From: Arenibacter algicola
Lineage (GTDB): Bacteria; Bacteroidota; Bacteroidia; Flavobacteriales; Flavobacteriaceae
DNA: 64,000 nt
Direction of reading: 5' to 3'
NCBI RefSeq assembly: GCF_018860365.1
Contig: NZ_JAHKPO010000007.1
Coordinates: 124,001-188,000, forward strand
Under the pieces are notes generated by a model. It searched no databases and was not told the origin of the DNA. It saw only the letters and a program-made list of their open reading frames with translations. Both the position numbers and the translations under genes were made by a program. Below are positions 1,933 through 20,302 of the stretch, piece after piece; position 1 is the stretch's first letter, and each line of letters opens with the position of its first letter.

Positions 1933-1944
1933 TCGGATTATAAA

Positions 1945-2850: not shown

Positions 2851-2893
2851 TTAATTGAATATTGAGAAAACTATCATTAAGAAATATAAAACG

Positions 2894-4190: not shown

Positions 4191-4775
4191 TTGAAAAAAG
4201 GTCAGCCTAATATCAACAATGAGCTTTTTCTTTCCCTTTTGGAAAAGGGTGAGAAGTGCGCATTTGAGACCTTGTTCAGACTCTACTATACCAAACTCGT
4301 ACAAATTGCAAAAGGATATCTAGTCTACCAACAGGAAGCCGAAAGTATAGTACAGAACGTATTTCTTAAAATATGGGAAAATAAAGAATCTCTGGGCGAA
4401 GTGTCCAATATTAATAATTATTTATATACCATGACCAAGAATTTGTGCCTGGACCAACTAAGGCACGAAAAGGTTAAAAGGAACTACATAGATAACAGTT
4501 ATCGCCTAAAATCTCAAATTCAGTATAAATTTATTCAGGATGAGGCGGCCTCCCTGTTACTTGAAAATGAATTGGAAAGCAAAATAATTCAGAGCATAGA
4601 ATTATTACCTGAAAAATGTAAAAATATTTTCAAAAAGAGCCGACTAGAGGGATTGAAGCATGGTGAAATAGCTGTGCAGATGGGCATTTCACACAAAACG
4701 GTAGATAACCATATTGCCACTGCCCTGAGGCATATGAGGTTTCATTTAAGGGAATTTATCTCAATTTCCCAATAA
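4191..4775 (+). CDS. RNA polymerase ECF-type sigma factor
   Basis: A 194-residue extracytoplasmic-function sigma factor. The sigma-2 region spans about residues 22-92, with the core-binding stretch ESIVQNVFLKIWENKESL and the -10-recognition stretch NNYLYTMTKNLCLDQLRH. The sigma-4 helix-turn-helix spans about 135-185, with LPEKCKNIF and ISHKTVDNHIATALRHM. It is directly followed by a FecR anti-sigma gene and an STN-bearing SusC, the standard Bacteroidota trans-envelope set, so it probably activates the downstream susCD genes when substrate is sensed. The frame is closed by TAG at 4146 and the first plausible start is a TTG at 4191; no ATG lies near the N-terminus, so TTG initiation is likely. 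Confidence 0.93.
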   Translation: MKKGQPNINNELFLSLLEKGEKCAFETLFRLYYTKLVQIAKGYLVYQQEAESIVQNVFLKIWENKESLGEVSNINNYLYTMTKNLCLDQLRHEKVKRNYIDNSYRLKSQIQYKFIQDEAASLLLENELESKIIQSIELLPEKCKNIFKKSRLEGLKHGEIAVQMGISHKTVDNHIATALRHMRFHLREFISISQ

Positions 4776-6159: not shown

Positions 6160-9100
6160 ATGAAAAACCTAATTAGGCTGGGGAGGGAATCCCATTTTCA
6201 GCTACAATATGATTTGAAAATGAAGCTAACTACATTGTTGCTATTGATTGTTTCGTTTTTTCAAATTCATGCTAACGAAACTTATGGTCAAAAGACCAAA
6301 GTTACCTTGAACCTCAAAAATGTAAGCGTAGAAAGTGTATTGAACAAAATTGAGTCGCTTACAGAATTCAAATTCATGTATAATGATAAGGAGGTAGATT
6401 ATAAAAAAATTGTCTCTGTGAGCGCTGATAAAGAATTGGTAACTACAATTCTAGATAGAATTTTTTCTAAGATGCACATTACCTATGAGGTATTGGATAA
6501 ACAGATAGTGCTTAGGCCGGAAAAAAATATTCCCCCTTTAACTAGGGAGGAAGAAAAAAAGGTGGAGCTGTATCAGCCGTTTAAGGTAAATGGTACTATT
6601 TTGGACAGCGATGGTAGTCCTTTGCCTGGGGCGAACGTATTGGAAAAAGGAACTACCAACGGTACCCAGTCCGATTTTGACGGTAATTTTTCCTTAGATG
6701 TAAATGGGCCAAACGCAGTTCTGGTCGTTTCATACATAGGGTTTACTACCACGGAAAAGTCACTAAATGGGCAAACCAATGTCTCCATTGCCTTGGAAGA
6801 GAGTGCTACAGGTCTAAGTGAAGTAGTAGTAACCGCCTTGGGTATTAAGAGGGAAAAGAAGTCCTTGGGATATGCGTCCCAGGAGCTTGATGGAGACCAG
6901 GTATCCGCGGCTAGGGAACCCAATCTTTTAAATGGCATTTCAGGAAAAGTGGCCGGTCTACAGATTACCAACAGCCCCTCGGGCCTGGGAGGTTCTGCCA
7001 GGGTATCTATAAGGGGTGATGCTTCCTTGAACATCAATGGCAACTCCCCTTTGTTTATTGTGGATGGTACTCCTATTAGCAATGAAATTGTAGGTTCCAG
7101 CGGTTCTGGAACACAGGATGTGGATTACGGAAATGGGGCTTCCGAAATAAATCCTGAGAACATAGAATCCATCAACGTGTTAAAAGGTCCTGCCGCCGCG
7201 GCACTTTATGGGGCCAGGGCTGCTAACGGAGCCATTATTATAACCACTAAAAAGGGATATACCAAAAAAGGCCAATTGGGAGTTAGCATCAATTCTGGAA
7301 TTACAATGGAAAGTGTTTTGTTATTGCCAGATTGGCAAAACGAATACGGTCAAGGTAACAACCAGCAGTTTGCATTTGTTGATGGAAGTGGAAGTGGTAT
7401 CGCCGATGGTGTTGACGAAAGTTGGGGGCCAAGATTGGACACTGGGCTAATGATCCCACAGTTTGATTCACCTAGGGCCGATGGAACAAGGGGAGGAGAC
7501 TACCTGGTGAGCGATTCGCCAATTACCCCTACACCATGGGTGTCCATGCCGGACAATACCTTGGATTTCTTTAATACGGGATACACAAAGACCAATAGCA
7601 TTGCCATTTCCAAATCTGGAGACTTGGGCAATATCAGGTTCTCCTACCAAAATTTGGATCAGGAGGGCATAGTACCCAATACGGACCTAAGGCGAAATAG
7701 CTTTAATTTGAATACAGGCCTTAACCTGACCGATAAATTAACGATCAATACCAATGTAAATTATATAAAATCCGATAGTGACAATAGGCCATCCCTAAGC
7801 TATGGTACGGAAAGTATCATGTATCTCTTTATTTGGTACGGAAGGCAATTGAATACCAATAGTATGAGGGATTATTGGATGCCCGGCAGGGAAAATCTTC
7901 AGCAGTTCAACTATAATTACAATTATCACGACAACCCTTTCTTCAACGTATATGAGAATACCAATTCACAGAACAAGGACAGGGTATATGGAAATATTAG
8001 TGCCAATTACACCATAAACGATAATTGGAGTTTAATGGTAAGGACCGGGAGGGATTTTTATCGAGATCTAAGGACCAAGAAAAGAGCGTTTAGTACCCAG
8101 CGTTTCCCTCTAGGTTATTATAGGGAGGACAATGTATTTTTTGAAGAATCCAATACGGATTTCCTTTTGTCCTATGATAAGACCTTCAACGAAAAATGGA
8201 ACGTAAATATATCTGCCGGTGGCAACCAATTTCGTCAGAAACAGGAGTATACACAGACAGTTGCCCCGCAGTTGATCAATCCCGGCGTGTATTCCTTTAA
8301 TAACACCAGAAGACCGCTGGAGGTATATACCAACAACGAACAGAAGAGGATAAACAGTCTCTATGGTTTTGCCAGGTTTGCCTATGACAATTTGCTTTTC
8401 TTGGATGTAACGGGACGTAACGATTGGTCCAGTACACTGCCTACGGATAATAATTCATATTTCTACCCTTCGGTTACCTTGAGTGCCATAGCTAGCGATA
8501 TTTTTAAAATGCCGGAATTTGTGTCCTTTGCAAAATTAAGGGCGGCATATGCCGAGGTGGGTAATGATACGGACCCTTATAAGTTGTCCAGTTTCTTTAC
8601 CAATGAAACACCTTTTGGGGATAATCCAATTTTAACGGAATCCTCTTTGATCCCCAATGCCGATTTAAAACCTGAGATTACATCATCCTATGAGATTGGT
8701 GCCGATATCCGTTTGTTCCAAAGTAGGCTGAATTTGGATGCTACCTATTACGATGGGCGTACCAAGAACCAGATCATACCTATAAGCACGGATATTTCCA
8801 GTGGATATACCAGTAAGTTGATCAACGCGGGTGAAGTAAGGAATTATGGGTTCGAGGCCATGTTGAACGTTGTTCCCGTGAGGACGGAAAATTTCAGTTG
8901 GAACACTATGTTCAACTATTCCAGAAACAGAAGTGAGGTTACCGATCTGGGAGGTATAGATTATACGCTTACAGAAAGGAACAGTGTTTTTATCCAAGCT
9001 AGGGAAGGCGGTTCCATCAGTGCTATTTATGGAAGGGGATTCCAACGCGTAGAAGATGAGAACAGTCAGTATTATGGCCAAATGATCGTAAATAACAGTG

Positions 9101-9681
9101 GTATCCCCATTAGGACGGACGATTTGGTGTATCAGGGCGATTATGCCCCTGATTATACCTTGGGAATACTCAACAGTTTTAAGTATAAATCTTTGGATTT
9201 TGGATTTATGTTCGATATAAGACAAGGGGGAATAGTAGTATCCAGGACCAAAACGATAGGATCCACTTCTGGGCAATTAAAGGAAACTTTGGAAGGAAGG
9301 GAAACTGGAATCGTTGCAGAAGGGGTATTGGAGACATCTCCTGGGGTATATACGCCCAACACCATAAACGTGGATGTTAGGACCTACAATAACCGCTACT
9401 ATGAGCGGGATAATGTAGAGGCGGCCAAATATGATGCTTCATATACCAAATTGCGCGAAGTAACTTTGGGCTATAGTCTTTCCAAGAAAATTATAGATAA
9501 GCTTCCCATAAGTAAGGCAAGATTATCCCTGACAGGTAGAAATTTGGCACTTTGGACGGACAACCCTCATTTTGATCCGGAAACGGTCTCGGTTGCTGGT
9601 GGTACCCTGCAGCCCGGTATAGAGAATATGTCCTATCCCAGTACCAAAACATACACTCTGAATTTACAAATCGATTTTTAA
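6160..9681 (+). CDS. SusC/RagA TonB-dependent transporter with STN signalling domain
   Basis: A 1173-residue outer-membrane transporter. Order of parts: a long N-terminal signal region with the hydrophobic core at about 22-37; STN (secretin/TonB N-terminal) domain 50-118; carboxypeptidase-regulatory-like barrel 142-215, with LPGANVLEKGTTNGTQSDFDG; TonB box region LSEVVVTALGI (219-229); plug about 232-365, with NINGNSPLFIVDGTPI; then the beta-barrel to the terminal strand LNLQIDF. The STN domain matches the FecR gene upstream, so the protein is both transporter and surface signal receptor. It pairs with the SusD-like lipoprotein 11 bp downstream. Substrate is unknown and there is no glycoside hydrolase in the same transcription unit. 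The signal peptide may really start at the internal ATG near 6220. Confidence 0.95.
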   Translation: MKNLIRLGRESHFQLQYDLKMKLTTLLLLIVSFFQIHANETYGQKTKVTLNLKNVSVESVLNKIESLTEFKFMYNDKEVDYKKIVSVSADKELVTTILDRIFSKMHITYEVLDKQIVLRPEKNIPPLTREEEKKVELYQPFKVNGTILDSDGSPLPGANVLEKGTTNGTQSDFDGNFSLDVNGPNAVLVVSYIGFTTTEKSLNGQTNVSIALEESATGLSEVVVTALGIKREKKSLGYASQELDGDQVSAAREPNLLNGISGKVAGLQITNSPSGLGGSARVSIRGDASLNINGNSPLFIVDGTPISNEIVGSSGSGTQDVDYGNGASEINPENIESINVLKGPAAAALYGARAANGAIIITTKKGYTKKGQLGVSINSGITMESVLLLPDWQNEYGQGNNQQFAFVDGSGSGIADGVDESWGPRLDTGLMIPQFDSPRADGTRGGDYLVSDSPITPTPWVSMPDNTLDFFNTGYTKTNSIAISKSGDLGNIRFSYQNLDQEGIVPNTDLRRNSFNLNTGLNLTDKLTINTNVNYIKSDSDNRPSLSYGTESIMYLFIWYGRQLNTNSMRDYWMPGRENLQQFNYNYNYHDNPFFNVYENTNSQNKDRVYGNISANYTINDNWSLMVRTGRDFYRDLRTKKRAFSTQRFPLGYYREDNVFFEESNTDFLLSYDKTFNEKWNVNISAGGNQFRQKQEYTQTVAPQLINPGVYSFNNTRRPLEVYTNNEQKRINSLYGFARFAYDNLLFLDVTGRNDWSSTLPTDNNSYFYPSVTLSAIASDIFKMPEFVSFAKLRAAYAEVGNDTDPYKLSSFFTNETPFGDNPILTESSLIPNADLKPEITSSYEIGADIRLFQSRLNLDATYYDGRTKNQIIPISTDISSGYTSKLINAGEVRNYGFEAMLNVVPVRTENFSWNTMFNYSRNRSEVTDLGGIDYTLTERNSVFIQAREGGSISAIYGRGFQRVEDENSQYYGQMIVNNSGIPIRTDDLVYQGDYAPDYTLGILNSFKYKSLDFGFMFDIRQGGIVVSRTKTIGSTSGQLKETLEGRETGIVAEGVLETSPGVYTPNTINVDVRTYNNRYYERDNVEAAKYDASYTKLREVTLGYSLSKKIIDKLPISKARLSLTGRNLALWTDNPHFDPETVSVAGGTLQPGIENMSYPSTKTYTLNLQIDF

Positions 9682-9692: not shown

Positions 9693-11273
9693 ATGAAAAA
9701 CATACATATATCAAAAAAGGGTTTCTTCGTGATGTTTCTTTTGGCAGCTTTCATGGGTTGTACGGAAGACTTTGAGGAAATAAATCAAAACCCCAACTTT
9801 CCCGAGCAGGCTTCCTCGGAACTGCTTTTGCCCGGGGTTTTAAGACAAATGGCCTATAACTGGGGTAACCAAGGATGGGAAGAAGGCTTTACAGTAGTTC
9901 AATATGGAGCTCGACTGCAGTTTACCTCCGGGGATATATACCAGTGGTCCCCGACCGACAATCCATACAACGATGCCTATGACGGGCTGCGCGATATTGA
10001 GAATATTATTCGTGATACCAGGGAAAATCCGGATCGCCAGAATTACTATGGCGTTGGGCTGATCGTTAAATCGTGGATCTATTCCTATCTAACGGATTCT
10101 TATGGCGATGTCCCCTACACGGATGCTGTAAAGGGGATCAGCGATGATAATATTACACCCGAGTTTACGCCTCAACAGGAAATTTATGACGGATTATTGG
10201 CCGACCTAAAAGCCGCCAACACCGCATTGACAGGTACTCAAAATATATCCGGGGATATATTGTACGGTGGTGATGTATTGAAATGGAGGAAGTTTGCCAA
10301 TTCGCTCAGGCTTCGTCTCTTAATGAGGATAAGTGATGTGGATCAATCCAAAGCTACCGCCGGTATGGTGGAGATTATGGGAGATCCAACAACCTATCCC
10401 ATATTTGAGAGCAATGGGGATGCAGCATTATTGCAGTGGAATTCCGATAATCCACAACCCAAATATAATACCCGATCCGGTAGTTTTGATGAGGTTAGGT
10501 TGAGCCTTACCTTGGAGACCAGATTGAAGGATCTAAATGATAGAAGACTTATCGTTTTTGCACAGCCTACTTCCAATTCCGGAAAAGGAATCTATTCCGA
10601 CAATTTGGATGATTACGTAGGTATGCCCAACGGTTTGGACGATGAGGCGGCCTTAGGGTACAGCCCCACCGGAAACCCCAATGAGGTAGGGTCCAATTTT
10701 ATCTCCAGAATAGGGATTTTATTGGCGTGCAGGGCCTGTAACGTGGAGCTTGCTTCACCAACAGCTTCCCAGACGATCATAATGGATTATTCAGAGCTTC
10801 AGTTTATCCTGGCCGAGGCTAGGGAAAGAAATTTCATAACTGTAGGCGATGCCGCCACTTACTATGAAAATGGTATAAGAGCTTCCTTTTCGTATTATTT
10901 GGATAGGATAATTGCTGGGGGATGGAACGAGATTGCTGCCGACCTACAAGCTTTTGACCTGGATGCCTATATTGCACAAACGGCAGTGGCCTATACAGGA
11001 ACAACCGCTGAAAAGCTGGAAAAAGTAGCCTTGCAAAAATGGATAGCCCTCTTTTATACCGGTTTTGAAGCCTGGTCCGATTGGAGACGTACCGGAATGC
11101 CGGAAGTAATACCTGGTCCTGATGCTGTAAATGATAAAAAGGTCCCGGTGAGGTTTCAGTATCCAAATGCTGTGAAATCAACAAATAATGCCAACTATCA
11201 GCAGGCCGTTACCCGTATGGGGGGAGACGATTTAAATACCCTACTTTGGTGGGATGTTGCCAGTAATAATTAA
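9693..11273 (+). CDS. SusD/RagB-family surface lipoprotein
   Basis: A 526-residue SusD-like outer-membrane lipoprotein, the lid and binding partner of the SusC encoded 11 bp upstream. The N-terminus has a basic stretch, a hydrophobic core and the lipobox FMGC with the lipidated Cys at residue 23, followed by acidic residues typical of surface export in this phylum. The helical TPR-like regions and the sequence EEINQNPNFP resemble the SusD-like_2 subgroup. Length is within the usual 480-620 range. It ends the operon: a strong terminator starts 37 bp after the stop. Substrate cannot be read from the sequence; many pairs of this subgroup take up glycans, but some handle peptides or other oligomers. 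Confidence 0.93.
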   Translation: MKNIHISKKGFFVMFLLAAFMGCTEDFEEINQNPNFPEQASSELLLPGVLRQMAYNWGNQGWEEGFTVVQYGARLQFTSGDIYQWSPTDNPYNDAYDGLRDIENIIRDTRENPDRQNYYGVGLIVKSWIYSYLTDSYGDVPYTDAVKGISDDNITPEFTPQQEIYDGLLADLKAANTALTGTQNISGDILYGGDVLKWRKFANSLRLRLLMRISDVDQSKATAGMVEIMGDPTTYPIFESNGDAALLQWNSDNPQPKYNTRSGSFDEVRLSLTLETRLKDLNDRRLIVFAQPTSNSGKGIYSDNLDDYVGMPNGLDDEAALGYSPTGNPNEVGSNFISRIGILLACRACNVELASPTASQTIIMDYSELQFILAEARERNFITVGDAATYYENGIRASFSYYLDRIIAGGWNEIAADLQAFDLDAYIAQTAVAYTGTTAEKLEKVALQKWIALFYTGFEAWSDWRRTGMPEVIPGPDAVNDKKVPVRFQYPNAVKSTNNANYQQAVTRMGGDDLNTLLWWDVASNN

Positions 11274-11344: not shown

Positions 11345-11450
11345 ACAATATTAATCCTTCAAGTTTAAAAGGTGATATTTTTCTTATTTCATGGTATATT
11401 AGTTACCAACTTAGAAGTGTATAATCAAACCAAAAACCAAGAGAATAGAT

Positions 11451-12941
11451 ATGAGCAAAGGCGTTAAGTACAAGAAAATGGACAAATCCTATTTTGAATC
11501 CAGGGAACTTAAACGCCATGCAGGTGTTTGGTCCTTGTGGGCTTTGGGTGTAGGAGCCGTGATATCGGGACATTTTTCCGGATGGAACCTCGGTTTGGCA
11601 TCTGGGGGATGGGGCGGTATGTTCGTTGCTACCTGTATTGTAGCCGTAATGTACATTGGACTTACCCAGAGCGTTGCAGAAATGTCTCCAGCCTTGCCGC
11701 ATACCGGTGGTGCTTATTCTTTTGCCAGATCGGCCATGGGGCCTTGGGGCGGATTTTTTACTGGTTTGGTAGAGAATTTGGAATTTATACTTACTCCGGC
11801 CGTAATCGTTTTTTTTCTTAGTAATTATATGCAGGGTATTTTTGAGACGGCACCAGAAATGTTGCCTTTTTGGTGGTTCGGATTTTATACGGTCTTCACC
11901 CTTTTGAATATTGTGGGGGTAGAGTTATCTTTTCGTTTTACAGTGGCCTTAACTTTATTGGCTTTGGGATGTTTGGGCATATTTTGGGTGTCTTCTATTG
12001 GAAGTGCCGATTTTATGACTTATGCCTTGGATATAAAGGCGGGCGCCGACGGAAGTGCAGAACATTTGGAAGGAGGAGGAGGTTCCCTTTTCCCAATGGG
12101 ATGGGAAGGGGCGCTTAAAGCAATGCCCTTTGCTGTGTGGTTGTTTTTGGCTATTGAACAGTTGCCCTTGGCAGCTGAAGAATCCGTTGATCCCAAAAAA
12201 GATATGCCCAAGGGATTGACTTATGGCATCATCACCTTGATTATTTCGGCCTTTTTAATCCTTTGGCTAAATGCCTCCATACCTTTGGGGTCCTATGCAC
12301 TTTCACAGTCTGGAGAACCTTTATTGGACGGATTTAAGGTGTTGTATGGGGATAATATAGCCAAGCTCTTGGCCTTGGTAGCCTCCATTGGCCTGTTGGC
12401 TTCTTTTCATACCATAATTTTTGCGTTTGGCAGACAGATTTATTCCTTGTCCAGGGCCGGATATTTCCCTGTAATATTGTCCTTGACCCATAGCAAAAGA
12501 AAAACGCCCTATACCGCATTGATTCTTGGCTCTCTCATTGGTTTTACGGTTTTAATGGTTACCAAATTTTTAGCCGGTAATGAAAGTGAGGTATTTATTG
12601 GGGGTGCTTTATTGAACATCGCTGTTTTTAGTGCCATGCTCTCCTATATTTTACAATGTGGTTCCTTTTTGTTGCTAAGGAAGAATAAGCCTGGTCTTGA
12701 AAGACCCTATGTTAGCCCGTTTGGAAAACTAGGTGCTTGGTCCACTATTTTCTTGGCCAGTGTAATCATATATTTTCAGTTACAGGATCAGTCGTATAGA
12801 ACGGCAGTATTTATATCCATTGGGTATTTGATCATTGGGTTGGTGTACTTTGGGCTACAAGGTAGGCATCGATTGATACTCTCTCCAGAAGAAGAGTTTG
12901 CCTTGGAACACGATGCAAAAAAAGCAAACGTAAAAAACTAA
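11451..12941 (+). CDS. APC-family amine permease, ethanolamine-permease-like
   Basis: A 496-residue inner-membrane transporter of the amino acid-polyamine-organocation superfamily with about twelve hydrophobic segments. The first helix carries WSLWALGVGAVISGHFSGWN, which resembles the ethanolamine permease (Eat) subgroup. Helix 3 has SPALPHTGGAYSFARSAMG, and the loop PLAAEESVDPKKDMPKG is the conserved cytoplasmic E-E-x-x-x-P region of the family. It is followed on the same strand by a glutamine-synthetase-like ligase, aldehyde and alcohol dehydrogenases and a class I amidotransferase, which together imply an imported primary amine with an alcohol group. Ethanolamine is the simplest choice; propanolamine-type amino alcohols are alternatives. 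Start could also be the ATG at 11478. Confidence 0.85.
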   Translation: MSKGVKYKKMDKSYFESRELKRHAGVWSLWALGVGAVISGHFSGWNLGLASGGWGGMFVATCIVAVMYIGLTQSVAEMSPALPHTGGAYSFARSAMGPWGGFFTGLVENLEFILTPAVIVFFLSNYMQGIFETAPEMLPFWWFGFYTVFTLLNIVGVELSFRFTVALTLLALGCLGIFWVSSIGSADFMTYALDIKAGADGSAEHLEGGGGSLFPMGWEGALKAMPFAVWLFLAIEQLPLAAEESVDPKKDMPKGLTYGIITLIISAFLILWLNASIPLGSYALSQSGEPLLDGFKVLYGDNIAKLLALVASIGLLASFHTIIFAFGRQIYSLSRAGYFPVILSLTHSKRKTPYTALILGSLIGFTVLMVTKFLAGNESEVFIGGALLNIAVFSAMLSYILQCGSFLLLRKNKPGLERPYVSPFGKLGAWSTIFLASVIIYFQLQDQSYRTAVFISIGYLIIGLVYFGLQGRHRLILSPEEEFALEHDAKKANVKN

Positions 12942-13153
12942 ATTTTATAGCTAGAGGTGGGCATTATTCAATAATTTTATGGAGGATTTTTATTTAGGGA
13001 TGGGAGTTGTGGAAACAGGAAGATGTATCAACGGGCTATAATGTTGAATCTTGGAATAAGAATAGAATAATCAACCAGAAAGTAGTCAAGTGAAACCTTA
13101 CGTTCCATTAAGAGGTTTTCATTGGGCCAATAGAAAACAATAATAATAAACCT

Positions 13154-14530
13154 ATGAAAAAGGAAGTACCAAAAATGACCATAGAATCGGTCAAAAGTTA
13201 TATACAGGAACATCAAATTGAAAATATAAAGTTGGCCGTTGTTGATGTCGATGGCGTTCTCCGCGGGAAATACGTAAATTCCAAAAAGTTCCTATCCGCT
13301 TTGGACAAGGGATTTGGTTTTTGTAGTGTAATCTTTGGTTGGGACTCCAATGATGTATTATATAAGAATGATTCCTTTACTGGCTGGGCAGACGGTTTTA
13401 CCGATGCCAATGCTACAATAGATGCCTCCAGTATGAGAATGTTGCCAACGGAAGACTTCAAGTCCGTTATTTTTTTGGTGGATTTTTCCGAGAGTAGTGC
13501 TGCTAGTGTTTGTCCAAGATCTATACTGCGCAAAACCTTGGAAAGATTGGGGAAGTTAGGGCTTAAGGCAAGTGCCTCTTTTGAATTCGAGTTTTTCCTT
13601 TTTAATGAATCCCCTAAATCCGTTCGCGATAAGAACTATCATAATCTGGAGCCGATGACCCCAGGTAATTTTGGATATTCCATATTGCGAAGTTCTACCC
13701 ATGCCAATTTTTATCATGAAATAATGGAACTCTCCAAGGAGATGGAAATGCCTTTGGAAGGACTGCATACAGAGACTGGTGCAGGGGTACTGGAAGGGGC
13801 GCTTGAATATTCCGAAGCGTTAAGGGCGGCCGATAATGGAGCATTGTTTAAAAATTTCGTAAAGGTTTGGGCACAACAAAACAATTTGATGGCTTGCTTT
13901 ATGGCCAAATGGTCTTCCAGTTATCCCGGTCAATCCGGCCATATTCATATTTCTTTGCAAAATACTGATGGTACATCTGCCTTCTACGATAAAAATAAGG
14001 CAAATGGCATGTCCGATGTGATGCGCTGGTTTATTGGAGGACAGCAAAAGTTAATGCCCGAATTTTTGGCCATGGTGGCCTCTACATGTAACAGTTATAC
14101 GCGACTCATCCCGGGTTTTTGGGCTCCTACGGCGGCCTCATGGGGTTTAGATAATAGAACCTGTGCCCTTAGGGCCATCCCTGGTTCCGAAAAGTCACAA
14201 AGAGTGGAATACAGGGTGTCTGCAGCCGATATTAATCCCCATTTGGCACTGGCAGCCGCTATTGGTTCGGGATTGTGGGGCATAGAGAATAAAATTGAAC
14301 CTACAAAAGGAGTTGAAGGAAACGCTTACGATGTAGACTTCTCCCAGGAACTTCAGTTGCCCAGGACATTATCACATGCTGCTGAGAAATTTAAGAATTC
14401 AAAAATTGCACGGGACCTGTTTGGTGATATATTTGTGGATCACTATGCGTATACCCGACTATGGGAAGATCAACAACAACTTGGAGCTATAACCGACTGG
14501 CAATTAAAACGTTATTTCGAAATAATTTAA
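13154..14530 (+). CDS. Glutamine-synthetase-like gamma-glutamyl-amine ligase
   Basis: A protein of about 458 residues of the glutamine synthetase superfamily, predicted to join glutamate to a primary amine using ATP (as in PuuA, IpuC or GlnA4-type enzymes) rather than to make glutamine. Visible parts: beta-grasp domain with VVDVDGVLRGKYV near the N-terminus; first catalytic glutamates in SASFEFEFFLF; HTETGAGVLEGALEY in place of the classic E-x-GPGQ-E block; SGHIHISL with the nucleotide-site His; NSYTRLIPGFWAPTAASWG and NRTCALRAIP; and VEYRVSAADINPHLALAA near the end. The canonical Tyr-adenylation loop is not evident. Second in-frame ATG at 13175 is also possible. The 212-bp gap upstream has no clear terminator, so co-transcription with the permease is possible. 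Confidence 0.88.
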   Translation: MKKEVPKMTIESVKSYIQEHQIENIKLAVVDVDGVLRGKYVNSKKFLSALDKGFGFCSVIFGWDSNDVLYKNDSFTGWADGFTDANATIDASSMRMLPTEDFKSVIFLVDFSESSAASVCPRSILRKTLERLGKLGLKASASFEFEFFLFNESPKSVRDKNYHNLEPMTPGNFGYSILRSSTHANFYHEIMELSKEMEMPLEGLHTETGAGVLEGALEYSEALRAADNGALFKNFVKVWAQQNNLMACFMAKWSSSYPGQSGHIHISLQNTDGTSAFYDKNKANGMSDVMRWFIGGQQKLMPEFLAMVASTCNSYTRLIPGFWAPTAASWGLDNRTCALRAIPGSEKSQRVEYRVSAADINPHLALAAAIGSGLWGIENKIEPTKGVEGNAYDVDFSQELQLPRTLSHAAEKFKNSKIARDLFGDIFVDHYAYTRLWEDQQQLGAITDWQLKRYFEII

Positions 14531-14534
14531 AAAA

Positions 14535-15920
14535 ATGATAAATACCATATCACCTATAGACGGCACTATTTATTATACTGCCGAAGAACATGGCCCAAAG
14601 GATATTGAAAGGGCCCTACATTTGGCTGAAAGTGCTTTTCCACTTTGGTCCAATCTTTCTATTGCCGAGCGAGCTAAATATATAACGGCCTTCGTGGATG
14701 CCATTGTTCAGGATAAAAATGATATTGCCCTAGAAATTACCTGGCAAATGGGGAGACCATTGGGTCAATCCCCTGGAGAAATAAAGGGTTTTGGAGATCG
14801 CGCCCATTATATGATCGGAGTGGCGGAAGAGGCTTTGGGCGACTATAAAGTTGTAGATGCCGAGAATCCGGATAAAAGATGGGTAGAGCGTGTTCCAATC
14901 GGGGTTGTTAGTGTGTTGAGCCCATGGAACTATCCTTTCTTGACCTCTGTAAATGCTATTGTTCCGGCTTTAATGGCAGGAAACGTGGTAATTTTAAAGC
15001 ATTCGTTTCAAACCCCATTGGTGGCGGAACGTTATGCCAAGGCAGCTGCCAAGGCCGGATTGCCAAAAGGCGTTTTTCAAATACTGCACCTGAACCATAA
15101 AAATACAGGCCAATTAATTGCGGATAGCCGTATAGACGGGGTGTACTTTACAGGCTCCGTGCAGGGTGGAGTAGCCGTTCAAAATTCATTGCAGAACAAG
15201 TTTATTCCCTGTGGTTTGGAATTGGGAGGAAAAGATCCCGCCTATGTAATGGCCGATGCCAATTTGGAGAATAGTGTAGAAAATTTGGTAGATGGAGCAT
15301 TCTTTAATAGCGGTCAATCTTGTTGCGGTATCGAAAGAATTTATGTTCATGAAACCCTTTACGACAAGTTTGTAGATGGATTTGTAGCGCTTACAAAGCA
15401 GTACAAGTTAGGGAATCCTTTGGATGCCGGGACCAATTTGGGGCCTATGGTAAAGACCGATGCGGCCAATTACGTAAGAAAACAAATAGAGCAGGCCTTG
15501 GGTAAAGGGGCAAAATCCTTGGTGCCGGAGTCTTTGTTCTCATCATCCAAAAAAGATACCCCTTATTTATCCCCTCATGTGCTGGTGAATGTGGATCATA
15601 CTATGGACGTAATGACCGAGGAAAGCTTTGGACCTGTAGTAGGGATAATGAAGGTTAAGAGCGATGAAGAAGCATTGCGATTGATGAATGATTCCCAATA
15701 TGGACTTACCGCTTCCCTGTGGGCAAATGATATGGATAAGGCTATTGATTTGGGGAGGAAAATAGAGACTGGTACCGTATTCATGAACCGTTGCGATTAT
15801 TTGGATCCTGCCTTGGCTTGGACGGGTGTTAAAAATTCCGGTAAGGGCGTTACATTATCAAAAATTGGATACGACCATGTTACCCGGGTTAAATCATTCA
15901 ATTTTAGAAAAGGGAAATAA
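14535..15920 (+). CDS. Aldehyde dehydrogenase (putative gamma-glutamyl aldehyde oxidation)
   Basis: A 461-residue NAD(P)-dependent aldehyde dehydrogenase. Seen: PWNYPF cofactor-site motif, FTGSVQGG loop, LELGGKDPAYV with the general-base Glu, and catalytic Cys at residue 263 in NSGQSCCGIERI. It begins 4 bp after the ligase stop, so translation is probably coupled. In the proposed pathway it would oxidise the aldehyde formed by the iron alcohol dehydrogenase to the matching gamma-glutamyl amino acid (gamma-glutamylglycine if the amine is ethanolamine), the equivalent of PuuC in the Puu pathway. ALDH sequence alone does not fix the substrate; the role rests on gene order. Confidence 0.88.
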   Translation: MINTISPIDGTIYYTAEEHGPKDIERALHLAESAFPLWSNLSIAERAKYITAFVDAIVQDKNDIALEITWQMGRPLGQSPGEIKGFGDRAHYMIGVAEEALGDYKVVDAENPDKRWVERVPIGVVSVLSPWNYPFLTSVNAIVPALMAGNVVILKHSFQTPLVAERYAKAAAKAGLPKGVFQILHLNHKNTGQLIADSRIDGVYFTGSVQGGVAVQNSLQNKFIPCGLELGGKDPAYVMADANLENSVENLVDGAFFNSGQSCCGIERIYVHETLYDKFVDGFVALTKQYKLGNPLDAGTNLGPMVKTDAANYVRKQIEQALGKGAKSLVPESLFSSSKKDTPYLSPHVLVNVDHTMDVMTEESFGPVVGIMKVKSDEEALRLMNDSQYGLTASLWANDMDKAIDLGRKIETGTVFMNRCDYLDPALAWTGVKNSGKGVTLSKIGYDHVTRVKSFNFRKGK

Positions 15921-15960
15921 AATTTATAAATCAATTTATTGAATTAAAAAATAAGAATTA

Positions 15961-17133
15961 ATGCAATTAGCAAATACAAATTGGAATTATCCTACCACCA
16001 TCTGGTTTGGAAATGGTAGAATAAATGAAATCTCACAGGCATGCCAAAAATTGGGGATCAAGAATCCTTTATTTGTTACTGACGAGGGCTTGGTGAAATT
16101 GAATATTGTTGAAAATACCATAAACATCTTAAAAAAGGATGGGTTAAATTTTACGGTATACAGTGATGTGCAAGGAAATCCTACCGAGAAGAATGTTGTT
16201 GACGGAGTGGCCCATTATGTAAAACATAAACATGATGGAGTTATAGCCTTTGGAGGTGGTTCTGCCATTGATGCGGCCAAGACCATCGCATTTATGTCCG
16301 GACAGACCAGGTCTCTTTGGGATTTTGAAGATGTGGGCGATAATTGGAGTTATGCCGATCCTGCCGGAATTGCTCCCATTATAGCTGTCCCCACTACTGC
16401 CGGCACAGGGTCGGAGGTAGGTAGGGCATCGGTGATTCTGGATGAAAAATTGCATACCAAGAAAATCATTTTTCACCCAAAAATGTTACCGGCAATAGTG
16501 ATATCCGATCCCGAACTTACTTTGGGCCTGCCACCACATATTACGGCTTGGACCGGAGTAGATGCCATGGTGCATGCCATTGAGGCCTATTGTGCTCCAG
16601 GGTATCATCCTATGGCCGATGGTATCGCCATTGAAGCCATCCGCATTATTGCCAAGTATTTGCCAATAGCCGTTAAGGACGGAAAAAATTTGGAGGCTAG
16701 GGGGCAAATGCTGGTAGCTGCCTCTATGGGGGCAACGGCCTTTCAAAAAGGATTGGGTTCCGTGCATTCCGTGGCCCATCAATTGGGAGCCATTTACAAT
16801 AAGCAACACGGTTTGTTAAATGCTATAATATTGCCATATGCCTTAAAACAGAATAAGGCGGCTATTGAGGATAGAATGGTGCATTTAAGTAAAGTCCTTG
16901 GATTGGAAAAGGAAGGTACCGATGCTATTATCGATTATATAATCGGTCTGAGAAAAGAATTGAATATTCCGCATACATTGAAAGATATAGACATTAATAC
17001 TGATAACGCGAAAGAAATAGGGGAAATGGCTTTTAAAGATCCCTCGACACCTTCCAACGCAAAACCTGTTAACGCAAAGGATTTGGAGCAACTTTTTAGA
17101 GTAGCGGTAACTGGAGATATAAATGGACTGTAA
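15961..17133 (+). CDS. Iron-containing alcohol dehydrogenase
   Basis: A 390-residue group III (Fe-type) alcohol dehydrogenase. Seen: NAD-site FGGGSAIDAAKT (about 97-108), TTAGTGSEV (about 145-153), metal-ligand Asp and His in TGVDAMVHAIEAY, and the two further His in GLGSVHSVAHQLGAIYNKQHG. All ligands appear intact. It is placed between the aldehyde dehydrogenase and the amidotransferase. A Puu-type putrescine locus has an FAD oxidase (PuuB) here, because the group to be oxidised is an amine; an alcohol dehydrogenase instead implies an alcohol group, which fits gamma-glutamyl-ethanolamide. The physiological direction and substrate are inferred. Confidence 0.9.
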   Translation: MQLANTNWNYPTTIWFGNGRINEISQACQKLGIKNPLFVTDEGLVKLNIVENTINILKKDGLNFTVYSDVQGNPTEKNVVDGVAHYVKHKHDGVIAFGGGSAIDAAKTIAFMSGQTRSLWDFEDVGDNWSYADPAGIAPIIAVPTTAGTGSEVGRASVILDEKLHTKKIIFHPKMLPAIVISDPELTLGLPPHITAWTGVDAMVHAIEAYCAPGYHPMADGIAIEAIRIIAKYLPIAVKDGKNLEARGQMLVAASMGATAFQKGLGSVHSVAHQLGAIYNKQHGLLNAIILPYALKQNKAAIEDRMVHLSKVLGLEKEGTDAIIDYIIGLRKELNIPHTLKDIDINTDNAKEIGEMAFKDPSTPSNAKPVNAKDLEQLFRVAVTGDINGL

Positions 17134-17135
17134 GC

Positions 17136-17936
17136 GTGAAACTGTTAATTGTAGAAGGAAATAACGAACAAACACGCCTGCAAAGGGGGGCTTTTGGGAT
17201 AAAGCCATATCATCTAATGTTCCAAGAAATGCTGAGGGGCTTGGTCCCAAAGGTACAGACAGATTTTGCCTTTCCGGCCGATGGGGCAAGTGAATTGCCT
17301 ACAGCTGCACAATTGGAAAAATATGATGGGGTATTGTGGACAGGCAGCTCCCTTAGTGTCCTTGATGATATCCCTGATGTTCAACAGCAATTAAATTTTG
17401 CCTCTGAGGTTTTCAAGAGCGGTGTACCGTTTTACGGCAGCTGCTGGGGCATGCAGATAGCTACTGTAGTAGCTGGGGGCAAGGTGGCACTTAGCAAGAA
17501 CGGCTTGGAGTTTGGAATCTCCGAACCAATTGATCTTACCCCGCTGGGAAGGAAAAGTCCGTTAACTTCCCACCGTCAAAAGACGTATTCAGCACTGTGT
17601 ATTCATTATGATGAAGTAGCAAAGGTGCCCGAAAACGCCATTGTTTTAGCCAGTAATTCCCATTCCAAGGTGCAGGCCATGACATTCGACTTTAAAAAAG
17701 GTTCATTTTTTGGGGTGCAATATCATCCTGAATTCAATCCTTCGGACATGGCATTGATAGGCTTGTTTTTATCAGAAAAATTGGTCAAAAGCGGTGCTTT
17801 TAAATCTTTGGAGGAAGTAAAGGAATTCGCCTTATCATTAAAGGAACAGAAAGGAATTCCACCGGAGATTTGCGATTACCAACTCCATACCCAAGAAATA
17901 ATGGCTTGGTTAAAGTTAATAGCTGGAAAACAATAG
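17136..17936 (+). CDS. Class I glutamine amidotransferase-like gamma-glutamyl hydrolase
   Basis: A 266-residue class I GATase domain protein. The nucleophile is Cys103 in YGSCWGMQ, and the His-Glu pair is His197 and Glu199 in QYHPEF, so the triad is complete. There is no attached synthetase domain; it stands alone like PuuD-type gamma-glutamyl hydrolases or GMP-synthase-like GATases. Start is a GTG at 17136, only 2 bp after the alcohol dehydrogenase stop, and no ATG is available before LLIVEG. As last enzyme of the proposed pathway it would release glutamate and an amino acid (glycine if ethanolamine is the substrate), recycling the glutamate spent by the ligase. The reaction is inferred from neighbours. 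Confidence 0.87.
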   Translation: MKLLIVEGNNEQTRLQRGAFGIKPYHLMFQEMLRGLVPKVQTDFAFPADGASELPTAAQLEKYDGVLWTGSSLSVLDDIPDVQQQLNFASEVFKSGVPFYGSCWGMQIATVVAGGKVALSKNGLEFGISEPIDLTPLGRKSPLTSHRQKTYSALCIHYDEVAKVPENAIVLASNSHSKVQAMTFDFKKGSFFGVQYHPEFNPSDMALIGLFLSEKLVKSGAFKSLEEVKEFALSLKEQKGIPPEICDYQLHTQEIMAWLKLIAGKQ

Positions 17937-17957
17937 GAAGAACTTTTATAAAATTAA

Positions 17958-17999
17958 TAAACGGATGGATTTTAATTATTAATCCATCCGTTTATTTTG
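17958..17999. terminator. Bidirectional terminator between convergent genes
   Basis: A perfect 14-bp inverted repeat (arms 17958-17971 and 17981-17994, core ACGGATGGATT) with a 9-nt AT loop, followed by TTTTGTTTTGG. It lies 21 bp after the amidotransferase stop and 44 bp from the end of the opposing GH92 gene, so it can serve the plus operon and probably also the minus gene. Confidence 0.9.
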
Positions 18000-18043
18000 T
18001 TTTGGACTCATAGCCAAGTCTCCAAATTAACTATACTCCTTTT

Positions 18044-20302
18044 TTAGTTGTTTTTAAAAGCACTGGTATTGGGGCTTTTCCCCATTTCAAATTCAAGGAC
18101 ATTGCCATTCATTATCTGGGTATAGGTGATAAAGGGTTCGTCCAATACCTTTCCGTCCAATTTCAGGGATTGAATGTACATGTTCTCTTCGGAGAGGTTG
18201 TTGGTTTTTATTTTAAATGATTTTAGTTCTCCGTTCTTGCGTAAGCTAAGGGTGAGTTCTGGAAATTGAGGTGCCCCAATGGCGAATATTTCTGTACCTG
18301 GGGTAACTGGGTAAAATCCCATAACCCCAAAAACGTACCAAGCTGACATTTGTCCGCAATCATCGTTTCCGTTGATTCCTAGAGGGTGATTTCTATAATT
18401 AATGGTAGAGGTGTGCTTGCGGATAAGCTCTTGGGTTTTCCAAGGTTGCCCTGCATAGTTGAATAGGTAGGCATAATGATGTCCGGGCTCATTATCATGT
18501 CGGTAATGTTGCCCATCAAAATTTTCATTTAATTTGGCGGCAAACTTTTCCTTCCCGCCAAAGAGTTCGATGCTTCCTTCAATATCGTGCATGGCGCCAA
18601 ATAAATAGGTCCATCTCCCACCTTCCGTAAACCCTTCCTGTTCGTTTTTGTCCCAATCGCCATTAAATAGTCGGGCATTAAGGAACCCCGTTTCCTTGTT
18701 GTAAAGGTTTTTGTAGTTTTTGCTCCATCCCATTAATCGCTCATAATCTTCAATTTTACCCATGTCCTTGGCCATTTGGGCAATGCTATAGTCGTCTATT
18801 CCAAACTCGATGGTCCGTGTTACGGATTCCCGTGTCTTATCTGCCGCAACATATCCTAAGGAATGATAGTAGGTGAGTCCGCCCCTTGCTTCGTAGAGAG
18901 TACCCTCATCCCTATCCCCCCAAGGTTTTTCGGTGTCCCTATAAGGTGGGTGCATGGCATTTTTTCTAACGGCTTCATAGGCTAGATCCAGATCGTAATC
19001 CCGAAATCCCTTTACGTAGGCATCTGCAATTACGGCATCGGCATGGGTGCCGGTCATTATATTGGTATAGGTAGGATTGGGCCATTTTGGCAACCAACCT
19101 CCCTCTTGGTACATCTGTAATAAGGATTGTATCATAGGGCTAACCCGTTCTGGCTGTGTAAAATGCAGTAGGGGGTGCAGGGCCCTAAATGTATCCCAAA
19201 GGGAGTAGTCGTTATAAGAAACCCCTTCATGGACCTTATCGTCAAACGGACTGTAATAGCGGCCGTACTCTGAAAACTCCCTAGGGAACAACATGGTGTG
19301 GAACAAGGCGGTATAGAAAATGTTTTTTTGATCTTCCGTAGTTCCATTTGCTTTAATCCTGGAAAGATTTTCTTGCCAAATATCCCGGGTGTTTTCTACC
19401 ACTTTGTTAAAATCCCAATCTGGTATTTCCTTGGATAAGTTTTCACGGGCTTGATCCAAGCTTATAAAGGAAGTGGCAATTTTGACTTTGACCTTTTCAT
19501 TTTTTTCCGTTTTAAAACTAATGTATCCGCCCATTCTGGCTCCTGTCTGCTCCTTGCCCATTTCTATGATATCGGGCTCCGTTCTAAAGGAATTCCAAGT
19601 TCCAAATCGCTCAAAGGGTTTATCAAATTGAATTATAAAATAACCTTTAAAGTTTTTGAGTTCAGGACCTAAATGGGAAGACATCCTCTCAGGATTGTAA
19701 CCAGTAATTTCTCTTTTATTTTCATCTATTTTGATATACCCGTGAAACGCCTTTTTGTTCTCGGTAATATTAATACCTTGGATAATGATATGGGATTCAT
19801 CGGACTTGGGAAAGGTGAATTGAAAGATGCCACAGCGGGAGGCAGCTGCTATTTCCCCTTTTATTTTTCGACTTTTATCACCCATGGAAACACTGTAATA
19901 ATTAGGTTTGGATATTTCATCCTTATGGGTAAAGGGCAAGGCCCTGTCTTTGGGAAGTAGTTTTAATTTCCCTACTTGAGGCATAACGGACACGTAGCCA
20001 TAATCGCCCATCCACACCGTAGGTTGGTGAGTGGCCAAAAATCCCTGAATGGTATTGTCTTCATAAAAGTATGGCATTTCACTGATCTTATTTTCCCGTG
20101 TCTGTGCCACAAAATTGGTCATTGCAAAAGGGGTCCCCACGCAGGGCATGGTGCCTCCACCATCCCTGCCTTCCATAAAGCCGGCTGATGGGGTTCCAAT
20201 CAGTGGATTTACATAGTCAACCTCCATTTTGTTTTGGGCGGATAAAACTGTTATCCATAATAGTGGAAGGAGGGAGTACAAGAATTTCTTATTCGTTTTC
20301 AT
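18044..20302 (-). CDS. Secreted GH92 alpha-mannosidase
   Basis: A 752-residue glycoside hydrolase family 92 exo-alpha-mannosidase (Ca2+-dependent, inverting). N-terminal type I signal peptide (about 1-22, ending LSAQ). The mature start YVNPLIGT is a family hallmark. Further marks are the sugar-binding LWDTFRALHPL, WLPKWPNPTYTNIMTGTHAD, the general-acid loop HDNEPGHHYAYLFNYAGQPW with Glu605 (same position as the acid Glu in characterised members such as BT3990), and GNDDCGQMSAWYVFGVMGFY with the base Asp. All catalytic residues appear present. It is a single gene, divergent from ppc, with its own long 5' region. Likely substrate is alpha-linked mannose of yeast mannan, N-glycans or algal glycoproteins; linkage cannot be fixed here. 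Confidence 0.94.
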   Translation of the reverse strand: MKTNKKFLYSLLPLLWITVLSAQNKMEVDYVNPLIGTPSAGFMEGRDGGGTMPCVGTPFAMTNFVAQTRENKISEMPYFYEDNTIQGFLATHQPTVWMGDYGYVSVMPQVGKLKLLPKDRALPFTHKDEISKPNYYSVSMGDKSRKIKGEIAAASRCGIFQFTFPKSDESHIIIQGINITENKKAFHGYIKIDENKREITGYNPERMSSHLGPELKNFKGYFIIQFDKPFERFGTWNSFRTEPDIIEMGKEQTGARMGGYISFKTEKNEKVKVKIATSFISLDQARENLSKEIPDWDFNKVVENTRDIWQENLSRIKANGTTEDQKNIFYTALFHTMLFPREFSEYGRYYSPFDDKVHEGVSYNDYSLWDTFRALHPLLHFTQPERVSPMIQSLLQMYQEGGWLPKWPNPTYTNIMTGTHADAVIADAYVKGFRDYDLDLAYEAVRKNAMHPPYRDTEKPWGDRDEGTLYEARGGLTYYHSLGYVAADKTRESVTRTIEFGIDDYSIAQMAKDMGKIEDYERLMGWSKNYKNLYNKETGFLNARLFNGDWDKNEQEGFTEGGRWTYLFGAMHDIEGSIELFGGKEKFAAKLNENFDGQHYRHDNEPGHHYAYLFNYAGQPWKTQELIRKHTSTINYRNHPLGINGNDDCGQMSAWYVFGVMGFYPVTPGTEIFAIGAPQFPELTLSLRKNGELKSFKIKTNNLSEENMYIQSLKLDGKVLDEPFITYTQIMNGNVLEFEMGKSPNTSAFKNN

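Follow-up and report, generated by a model that had tools for sequence, protein, structure and literature searches.

What compound do five consecutive plus-strand genes serve in Arenibacter (Flavobacteriaceae), which encode, in order, a permease, a glutamine synthetase (GS)-like ligase, an aldehyde dehydrogenase (ALDH), an iron alcohol dehydrogenase (FeADH) and a class I GATase? The genes lie at 11451-17936 of the 64,000-nt stretch of DNA analysed here (the window; Table 1), and are separated, in order, by 212, 4, 40 and 2 bases. Ethanolamine, a head group found in very common phospholipids of membranes, had been predicted as substrate. We consider it highly probable that the five genes provide a route from ethanolamine to glycine that is free of cobalamin and microcompartments, and that is a variant of a published gamma-glutamylation pathway. 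We infer the reactions and the substrate from what can be seen directly: the gene set, the catalytic residues, the gene order and the genomic links.

Table 1. Features of the ethanolamine locus and its surroundings (positions in the window).
Feature	Position	Strand	Length	Profile or other support
End of myo-inositol catabolic operon (MMSDH 457-1932, IolE-like 1945-2850, IolG 2855-3904)	457..3904	+		
ECF sigma factor (FecI type)	4191..4775	+		TIGR02985, 165.6 bits (cut-off 126.4)
FecR anti-sigma factor	4833..5981	+		PF04773, PF16344
SusC/RagA-type TonB-dependent transporter	6160..9681	+		Relatives L076, L205, L206 at 75-78%
SusD-like lipoprotein	9693..11273	+		PF12771, 324.8 bits
APC-family permease, probable ethanolamine importer (Eat-like)	11451..12941	+	496 aa	TIGR00908 best model
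GS-fold gamma-glutamyl-amine ligase, probable ethanolamine gamma-glutamylase	13154..14530	+	458 aa	PF00120
Aldehyde dehydrogenase, probable gamma-glutamyl-aminoacetaldehyde dehydrogenase	14535..15920	+	461 aa	PF00171
FeADH, probable gamma-glutamylethanolamide dehydrogenase	15961..17133	+	390 aa	PF00465/PF25137
Class I GATase-fold hydrolase, probable gamma-glutamylglycine hydrolase	17136..17936	+	266 aa, GTG start	PF00117
GH92 glycoside hydrolase (alpha-mannosidase family)	18044..20302	-		TIGR01180, 555.1 bits

A Conserved Gene Set and the Proposed Pathway

The original prediction of five named gene families in a row is confirmed by the reading frames, their profile matches and intact catalytic residues. 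The order is identical in all 12 named Arenibacter loci and in 13/13 other ligase-bearing genomes of the genus (largely one species), and it recurs in Pricia, a Maribacter MAG, a Cytophagales MAG and two alphaproteobacterial MAGs (L165 and L180). Because it is conserved across Arenibacter, Pricia and MAGs, the arrangement is not due to chance.

In the proposed pathway, ethanolamine imported by the permease would be joined to glutamate by the ligase at the expense of ATP. The product, gamma-glutamylethanolamide, would have its amine hidden. FeADH would convert its alcohol to gamma-glutamyl-aminoacetaldehyde, ALDH would convert the latter to gamma-glutamylglycine, and the GATase-fold hydrolase would release glycine and regenerate glutamate. 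The predicted gamma-glutamylation scheme is supported by a GS-like ligase that lacks E327 and by four predicted enzyme activities that match the published pathway.

The pathway had seemed little described, a view that is not supported: published accounts already cover Streptomyces and Phaeobacter and, by citation, Chromohalobacter. A review states it for S. coelicolor and notes a proposal of identical steps in C. salexigens (PMC9397018); other papers name all four enzymes of a Phaeobacter operon (PMC10132767) and report an in vitro assay of GlnA4 (PMC6529630). What is new is the variant: a ligase of another clade joined to an ALDH of the known clade, and a hydrolase with a gamma-glutamyl peptidase fold. 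No published account of the Bacteroidota form, its ligase clade or its surroundings was found among open-licence PMC papers (mostly listings). The result extends the known marine ethanolamine route into Bacteroidota.

The Ligase

The ligase matches Gln-synt_C at 316.6 bits in profile search. In an alignment with E. coli GlnA (whose numbering is used here), E327 is replaced by W, as in PauA7. All six metal ligands (E129, E131, E212, E220, H269 and E357) are kept, as are the arginines for phosphate and glutamate (R321, R339, R344 and R359). The glutamate-site residue N264 is P in the window ligase and A in the 5dm3 group. The column of D50, the second ammonium-site mark, falls in a poorly aligned loop, where the window ligase has K and several relatives in its clade have D (L034, L088, L139, L140, L165, L189 and L197).

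The ligase is 29% identical to 5dm3, about 32% to the Paracoccus and Rhizobium ligases and 36% to an annotated IpuC of Paenarthrobacter TC1. In the tree, the window type (type A, the ligases of the window's clade) and 5dm3 with its operon relatives form separate clades (100/100), and a single clade for the two is disfavoured (AU p 0.017). Since the Bacteroidota copies nest among alphaproteobacterial ligases, lateral transfer, in an inferred direction, is likely. A second ligase clade, labelled glutamine synthetase by annotation, is brought to notice.

An ordinary glutamine synthetase with unrelated neighbours can practically be dismissed: although the fold is conserved, as are most residues for glutamate, ATP and metal, E327 is W, the glutamine synthetase model TIGR00653 gives 219 bits against a cut-off of 429.15 (the type III cut-off is also far from reached), the genome has two further PF00120 matches elsewhere, and the operon is conserved.

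The Other Enzymes and the Permease

ALDH (Aldedh, 421.1 bits in profile search) has its catalytic E229 and C263, and is 48-51% identical to the ALDHs of ethanolamine-type operons in Paracoccus, Rhizobium and Ruegeria. With these it forms a 24-row clade (96/99) in the tree. Outside the clade are the ALDHs of type B, the other gene-order type of operon in Flavobacteriaceae; a clade of the window type with type B was rejected (AU p 1.4e-7). The Arthrobacter U41 ALDH, listed beforehand in the known set, also falls outside, and the whole list as one clade fails (p 2.5e-11).

FeADH (Fe-ADH 172.9 and ADH_Fe_C 155.9 bits in profile search) has its metal ligands intact (D201, H205, H269 and H283). It is 49-50% identical to the FeADHs of known ethanolamine operons vs. 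36-42% to those of type B; in the tree, neither a grouping with the known set nor one with type B is rejected (AU p 0.43 and 0.28). The variant probably uses the FeADH of the known pathway.

A hydrolase like PuuD had been predicted, but the likeness did not extend to detail. The protein matches PF00117 at 63.6 bits and Peptidase_C26, the PuuD family, at 36.7 bits, and its nearest fold match is gamma-glutamyl peptidase 1. That match and the catalytic triad (C103, H197 and E199) predict an enzyme capable of cleaving gamma-glutamyl bonds. In this variant, the gamma-glutamyl-peptidase-like hydrolase and a ligase from a different GS-like clade would work with the ALDH of the known pathway. Across bacteria, the pathway's ligase and hydrolase differ in family or clade, while the ALDH stays the same. 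The permease is 45% identical to a Thermomicrobium permease annotated eat and 17% to the permease of the Rhizobium operon.

Evidence for Ethanolamine as the Substrate

We examined 103 ligase loci for genes within 6.5 kb; in 66 of them each flank is 6 kb or longer. Type A relatives outside Arenibacter number 68, 34 with complete flanks. In 30 of these 34, ALDH and FeADH flank the ligase (four are without the pair), and in 10 of the 34 both are present with no hydrolase recognised by the reference set. The window-type permease is found in 17/68 relatives, and an EtoX-type TRAP binding protein adjoins the ligase in 7/68 (L170, L189, L190, L196, L197, L201 and L202).

Among the latter are Thalassospira ligases, 58% identical to that of the window. 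At E 1e-40 or better, the neighbouring binding protein at L189 gives a single PDB match, 4uab/4xf5, which we take to be the ethanolamine binder, 4uab presumably being Csal_0678. Csal_0678 is stated to bind ethanolamine (PMC4646407). The presence of such a protein beside ligases of the window's clade is the strongest evidence for ethanolamine. Together with the ALDH clade shared with known operons, it favours the substrate originally predicted.

Operons of known type offer further parallels. Paracoccus L115 carries genes for RpiR, N-formylglutamate amidohydrolase, three TRAP components, ligase, ALDH and FeADH, in the order of the Phaeobacter operon, and Rhizobium L119 has permease, ligase, ALDH and FeADH in the window's order. 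At Paracoccus L036, the glyoxylate assimilation genes bhcBCD come after ligase, ALDH and FeADH, in keeping with glycine as the product.

The same chemistry could act on alaninol, serinol, aminopropanols or, as in Ipu, an alkylamine-derived alcohol, with alanine or serine as the product. We consider this unlikely. It is true that the ligase is nearer to IpuC than to 5dm3, that no assayed member of its clade was found in the literature (open-licence PMC papers), and that the permease scores 348.8 bits with TIGR00908, the ethanolamine permease model, under the cut-off of 381.75. However, ethanolamine-type TRAP binding proteins adjoin ligases of the same clade, the ALDH groups with those of ethanolamine operons, and no P450 or ferredoxin gene was found at 4191-20302, whereas the ipu cluster L113 has both.

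A Puu-type polyamine pathway, with the FAD oxidase encoded elsewhere and the alcohol dehydrogenase incidental, is very improbable. The parallel to PuuP, PuuA, PuuC and PuuD is at the family level: the ligase scores 197.4 bits with the PuuA-type model (cut-off 650) and the ALDH 232.5 with the PuuC model (cut-off 850), and their identities to the E. coli proteins are 28 and 30%. No PuuB oxidase was found among the window genes at 4191-20302, nor a PuuB-like ORF within 6.5 kb in any of the 103 loci (66 with flanks of 6 kb or more on either side). By contrast, FeADH is present within that distance in 12/12 Arenibacter, 51/68 other type A (31/34 with complete flanks) and 13/13 type B loci, and the predicted replacement of PuuB by an alcohol dehydrogenase is supported. 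The ethanolamine reading also accords with the predicted bypass of the ammonia-lyase: EutB (PF06751) has no match in the Arenibacter genome (31 contigs, rated 100% complete), and the E. coli control was positive.

Comparison with Known Systems

The Chromohalobacter/Phaeobacter type has EtoVWX, an ethanolamine gamma-glutamylase, gamma-glutamylethanolamide dehydrogenase, ALDH and gamma-glutamylglycine amidohydrolase (PMC10132767). The Arenibacter system shares with it the order ligase-ALDH-FeADH (via the syntenic Paracoccus L115), the ALDH clade and the proposed reactions and products. It differs in the ligase clade, in having an APC permease rather than TRAP and a GATase-fold hydrolase rather than N-formylglutamate amidohydrolase, and in having no RpiR regulator, with ECF/FecR and SusC/D upstream instead. 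The Streptomyces GlnA4 pathway likewise has a GS-like ligase without E327, ALDH, an amidotransferase/amidohydrolase and, in some species, a permease, but its alcohol step is given as a short-chain dehydrogenase (orf2, Fig. 2 legend) and not FeADH (PMC6529630).

E. coli Puu follows the same program of glutamylation, two oxidations and hydrolysis, with ligase, ALDH, hydrolase and transporter of shared superfamilies; the Arenibacter locus lacks the PuuB FAD oxidase and misses the PuuA-type and PuuC cut-offs. The isopropylamine pathway, Ipu, shares the GS-like ligase and glutamine-amidotransferase-type hydrolases, but it has P450, ferredoxin and ferredoxin reductase, all lacking in the Arenibacter locus, and a short-chain dehydrogenase in place of FeADH. 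Eut has the substrate in common and a member of the iron alcohol dehydrogenase family (EutG), but in Arenibacter EutB was not found in the genome, and the expected product is glycine rather than acetaldehyde.

The Surroundings of the Operon

Upstream, the inositol genes match TIGR01722 (540.8 bits, cut-off 448.5) and TIGR04380 (440, cut-off 355), while the IolE-like frame scores 212.5, under its cut-off of 290. The inositol operon precedes the ethanolamine operon, directly or past the SusC/D block, in 13 of the 14 ligase-bearing Arenibacter genomes (window included), the 14th ending at a contig end. GH92 and the window-type SusC/D occur together in 10/14 Arenibacter loci, window included; GH92 was not found in the fetched stretch of the four loci without that SusC/D.

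In some Flavobacteriaceae such operons adjoin SusC/D, secreted phosphatases or phospholipase C, and close relatives of the window's SusC in other genera accompany phosphodiesterase/phosphatase genes. This suggests, at lower confidence, that the SusC/D and inositol neighbours in Arenibacter are part of a system scavenging ethanolamine-phosphate head groups of lipids or glycans. A broader idea, possible but doubtful, is that Flavobacteriaceae have a class of nutrient loci for polymers or lipids bearing ethanolamine-phosphate (possibly aminoethylphosphonate), combining SusC/D uptake, phosphatase release and gamma-glutamylation. Phosphatidylethanolamine head groups or GPI-like glycans would be candidate sources. 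The TonB-dependent SusC/D pair would take up a piece, and secreted phosphodiesterase, phosphatases or phospholipase C would free the head group, whose ethanolamine the operon would burn. The operon itself would have been put together on two occasions, differing in gene order and hydrolase, and in Arenibacter it adjoins inositol catabolism and a mannosidase-family gene. If so, SusC/D systems serve phospho-amino-alcohol substrates and not glycans alone, and outer-membrane uptake in marine Flavobacteriaceae is tied to phospholipid or GPI turnover. The SusC/D-phosphatase link is directly testable in Arenibacter, which is culturable.

With a chance somewhat short of even, SusC/D, GH92 and the inositol genes are instead accidental neighbours on a catabolic island, unrelated to ethanolamine supply. 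The window has several other catabolic blocks, and its segment 4191-20302 yielded no phosphatase gene. In two of the 14 Arenibacter loci, no SusC/D separates the inositol genes from the ethanolamine genes, the window-type SusC/D occurs without the ethanolamine operon in L205 and L206, and neither SusC/D nor these phosphatases were found in the fetched stretch of 6/14 type B loci (L092, L093, L094, L096, L097 and L099). Accidental proximity does not, however, sit well with two phosphatase families, of which 5/22 and 7/21 copies are no more than 15 kb from the ligase, with operons of two gene orders, when random placement predicts about 0.14 and 0.13 copies (shared ancestry is ignored in these counts). 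Nor does it sit well with phospholipase C, which adjoins two type B operons.

The Five Genes and the Family of the Ligase

The original prediction of five consecutive genes is borne out by ORF calls on the window, which lies in a 5.75-Mb assembly: an APC permease, a glutamine synthetase (GS)-like ligase, an aldehyde dehydrogenase (ALDH), an iron alcohol dehydrogenase (FeADH) and a class I GATase hydrolase. Intergenic gaps are small throughout, except for 212 bases after the permease.

Features of the window around the five genes
Feature	Position (nt)	Placement
MMSDH, IolE-like protein, IolG	457-3904	upstream of the ECF/FecR/SusC/SusD block
ECF sigma factor, FecR, SusC, SusD	4191-11273	upstream of the five genes
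Permease, ligase, ALDH, FeADH, GATase hydrolase	11451-17936	forward strand
GH92 gene	18044-20302	downstream of the five genes, convergent
Hexuronate block: glucuronate isomerase, mannonate dehydratase, SusC/D, TRAP transporter	30762-48827	
Aminoethylphosphonate block: PhnA, PhnY-like, PhnW, MFS transporter, FAD oxidoreductase, metallophosphoesterase	49047-56686	
Second GH92 gene	60848-63133	

The genome has two more PF00120 matches, both on another contig, so the window's ligase is an additional GS-like gene. It does not reach the cut-offs of type I GS (219 vs. 429.15), type III GS (178.7 vs. 469.6) and gamma-glutamylputrescine synthetase (197.4 vs. 650). Among solved structures it comes closest to 11zs (228.6 bits) and then to 5dm3 (210.3 bits), the latter being, we assume, the Chromohalobacter enzyme. 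Aligned to E. coli GlnA, the ligase retains the six metal ligands and four arginines and has W for E327. The ammonium-site column D50 is K in the window and D in several relatives, and N264 is P. Since the D50 loop aligns poorly and varies among relatives, and N264 is P, we argue from E327 only. In the available text of PMC6529630, this position is likewise W in PauA7, and F in GlnA4.

Of the familiar pathways, Puu is set aside by the missed gamma-glutamylputrescine synthetase cut-off and by the gene neighborhoods: the original prediction had named PuuB-type oxidases in homologous clusters as evidence against an amino-alcohol pathway, and none of the 103 ligase loci compared carries a PuuB-like ORF within 6.5 kb. 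Membership in Ipu is set aside as well, its P450 with ferredoxin having no counterpart at 4191-20302. Eut drops out since EutB has no match in the genome (an E. coli control was positive), in agreement with what had been claimed. An ordinary GS is set aside by the missed type I cut-off and by the change of E327 to W.

Probably a Known Chemistry, in a New Variant

The pathway itself is published. According to the accessible text of PMC10132767, a Phaeobacter operon encodes RpiR, gamma-glutamylglycine amidohydrolase, the TRAP transporter EtoVWX, ethanolamine gamma-glutamylase, an aldehyde dehydrogenase and gamma-glutamylethanolamide dehydrogenase; its proteins were more abundant on phosphorylethanolamine, and related genes are said to be at work in C. 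salexigens and A. tumefaciens. The whole gamma-glutamylation scheme is laid out in a review (PMC9397018, seen in excerpt). The Paracoccus denitrificans locus L115 has the Phaeobacter gene order, and the family of the Phaeobacter dehydrogenase, which the accessible part of PMC10132767 does not name, is read off the L115 annotation, an iron-containing alcohol dehydrogenase. In Rhizobium (L119) an amino acid permease stands where TRAP would be, and Ruegeria (L114) has ligase-ALDH-FeADH. At another Paracoccus locus (L036) bhcBCD follows the ligase/ALDH/FeADH set, which fits glycine and glyoxylate as the next products. With counterparts in Phaeobacter, Streptomyces, Paracoccus, Rhizobium, Legionella and Thalassospira, the claim that the layout is little described had to be dropped. 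The probable chemistry of the five genes is ordinary and already known; the variant itself is new.

The variant lies in part in the ligase. The window's enzyme is 28-33% identical to the group of 5dm3, 11zs and the Paracoccus, Rhizobium and Ruegeria ligases, within which 5dm3 shares 60-74% identity with the ligases of the three operons. The window's FeADH and ALDH are 49-50% and 48-51% identical, respectively, to those of the known operons. In the ligase tree, the window's clade (type A) and a second Bacteroidota set with a different gene order (type B; L089-L101, 44-49%) form one group (100/100) separate from the 5dm3 group; joining type A with the 5dm3 group gave an AU p of 0.017. In the ALDH tree, type A forms one clade with the Paracoccus, Rhizobium and Ruegeria enzymes (96/99), with type B outside, and a clade of types A and B is rejected (p 1.4e-7). 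As the two trees make opposite groupings, ligase and ALDH have had different histories, and from their sequences two ligase clades would seem to serve one pathway. The window's FeADH has no settled place in either of two sets of trees. The first set left out 10 Arenibacter loci, and the later one used rows of our choosing (39 ligases, 34 FeADHs, 37 ALDHs). The GATase model was built from 23 sequences, that of the window together with 22 chosen from a list of 33. A single ALDH clade of window type plus known set was rejected (AU p 2.5e-11) with a named set that included the Arthrobacter U41 enzyme, whose partner is a short-chain dehydrogenase and whose place in the tree is with PuuC.

Conservation and Distribution

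Of the 103 loci, 66 had flanks of 6 kb or more on each side of the ligase, and in 37 the sequence broke off less than 6 kb from it; ORFs were labeled by the best BLAST reference at E 1e-10. Wide flanks were fetched for 8 of 55 class genomes with a match (besides the window's own), 22 of 24 other family genomes and all 13 other genus genomes. All five genes occur in the window's order in 12/12 named Arenibacter loci. Among non-Arenibacter type A loci with complete flanks, ALDH and FeADH are present in 30 of 34, and 20 of these 30 have a hydrolase matching the reference set. Type B loci have permease, ligase, FeADH, a C26-type hydrolase and ALDH, in that order, in 13/13. Ten further Bacteroidota ligase loci have FeADH nearby in three and ALDH nearby in three, and their ligases may do something else. 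In several Bacteroidota families (L102, L105, L107, L108, L109) a related ligase forms a conserved trio with a 345-aa protein and a HAD phosphatase (family search on the L105 member). These trio loci lack the ALDH/FeADH pair at the usual similarity; their ligase is perhaps used for synthesis, not breakdown. A kinase-like nature of the 345-aa neighbor of type C ligases was not borne out, the L105 protein having no Pfam family and a PDB match at chance level (E 0.17).

Among the best 80 of 222 relatives, all named ones with 84-97% ligase identity are Arenibacter (L125-L136), and type A is common in Alphaproteobacteria (Sneathiella, Thalassospira, Bradyrhizobium, Microvirga and others, 55-62%). 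Any ligase of this kind was found in 25/397 sampled family genomes, type A in 7 of those 25; within the genus, 14/18 genomes have a ligase. Bacteroidota type A ligases form a single clade (100/97) nested inside the alphaproteobacterial ones. The simplest reading is lateral gain from Proteobacteria, a direction that we infer. Base composition gives no clear sign of recent import, the GC of the five genes (0.41-0.43) being close to that of the flank at 6-11 kb. A Legionella lytica plasmid (L034, 9977-14624) has ligase-ALDH-FeADH-GATase in the window's order, with a ligase 53.8% identical; this bacterium, sampled from Acanthamoeba, would have the same route.

A Probable Link of the Window's Ligase Clade to Ethanolamine

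In 7/68 type A loci outside Arenibacter the ligase adjoins a TRAP binding protein that shares 66-73% identity with its Paracoccus L115 counterpart. The Thalassospira locus L189 reads RpiR, a 169-aa ORF, TRAP large subunit, binding protein, type A ligase, ALDH, FeADH and window-type GATase, and 4uab/4xf5 is the sole PDB match of its binding protein at E 1e-40 or better (564.5 bits). We take 4uab to be Csal_0678. As far as the available text of the two papers goes, Csal_0678 bound to ethanolamine (PMC4646407) and ethanolamine is on the list of TRAP ligands (PMC5812351). Among the sequence evidence for ethanolamine as the substrate of the window's ligase clade, the TRAP link is the strongest.

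Several Proteobacteria and one Arthrobacter carry an inositol-monophosphatase-family gene next to an ethanolamine-type ligase (L114 5323-6111, L116 6015-6815, L140, L143-L145, L149, L150, L152). These genes perhaps encode phosphoethanolamine phosphatases.

What May Feed the Five Genes

The most promising point is what feeds the five genes, rather than the five genes themselves. Our hypothesis is that the feed would be ethanolamine-phosphate lipids or glycans, because SusC/D, phosphatases, phospholipase C, inositol catabolism and GH92 recur nearby, though not universally. In 13/14 Arenibacter genomes, the window's included, the operon has inositol genes upstream; in the 14th the locus is cut off by the end of the contig. 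Window-type SusC/D and GH92 occur together in 10/14 Arenibacter loci; the other four have neither in the fetched stretch, and two of these have another SusC/D pair (SusCDe). Locus L208 has ECF-FecR-SusC-SusD, a phosphodiesterase, a phosphatase and GH92, its SusC, SusD and GH92 being 52, 40 and 78% identical to the window's. Among the open-licence PMC papers listed for SusD with ethanolamine or phosphoethanolamine, none was to the point.

In each of the four type A loci of other Flavobacteriaceae genomes (L074-L077), one or both of two phosphatase genes directly precede the permease. In L076, window-type SusC-SusD, a type I phosphodiesterase and a metallo-beta-lactamase-like protein are followed by purple-acid-phosphatase-like and AP-superfamily genes and then the five genes. 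In type B, both phosphatases lie downstream of the operon at L091, L209 and L210, SusCDe occurs at L089/L209, L090/L210, L098/L211 and L212, and a phospholipase C above its cut-off (TIGR03396) adjoins L098/L211 and L100; 6/14 type B loci have none of these in the stretch fetched.

Counting only matches of at least 62% identity (27/39 and 28/30 in the two match lists), 5/22 copies of the purple-acid-phosphatase-like gene sit no more than 15 kb from the ligase vs. about 0.14 expected at random placement, as do 7/21 copies of the AP-superfamily gene vs. about 0.13 (70 genomes; shared ancestry uncorrected). The former is present in 22/36 ligase-positive vs. 6/34 ligase-negative genomes and the latter gene in 19/36 vs. 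6/34, the 34 negatives coming from match listings rather than a random draw.

The L076-type module also occurs without the ethanolamine operon (L205, L206). In the window's own genome, contig C1 (L207, 141000-160000) carries a module of SusCDe, phosphodiesterase, metallo-beta-lactamase-like protein, the aminotransferase PbfA and a phosphatase, with the look of a locus for using phosphonates or phospho-esters taken up by SusC/D. The likeness of the modules' metallo-beta-lactamase-like protein to phosphorylcholine esterase extends over only about 38 residues (E 3.8e-5) and can be taken only as a hint. In the window's block for aminoethylphosphonate, the compound that is phosphoethanolamine's phosphonate analogue, PhnA (TIGR02335, 460.2 vs. 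407.55) and PhnW (TIGR03301, 406.8 vs. 360.8) score above their cut-offs and the PhnY-like protein slightly under (627.7 vs. 635.65).
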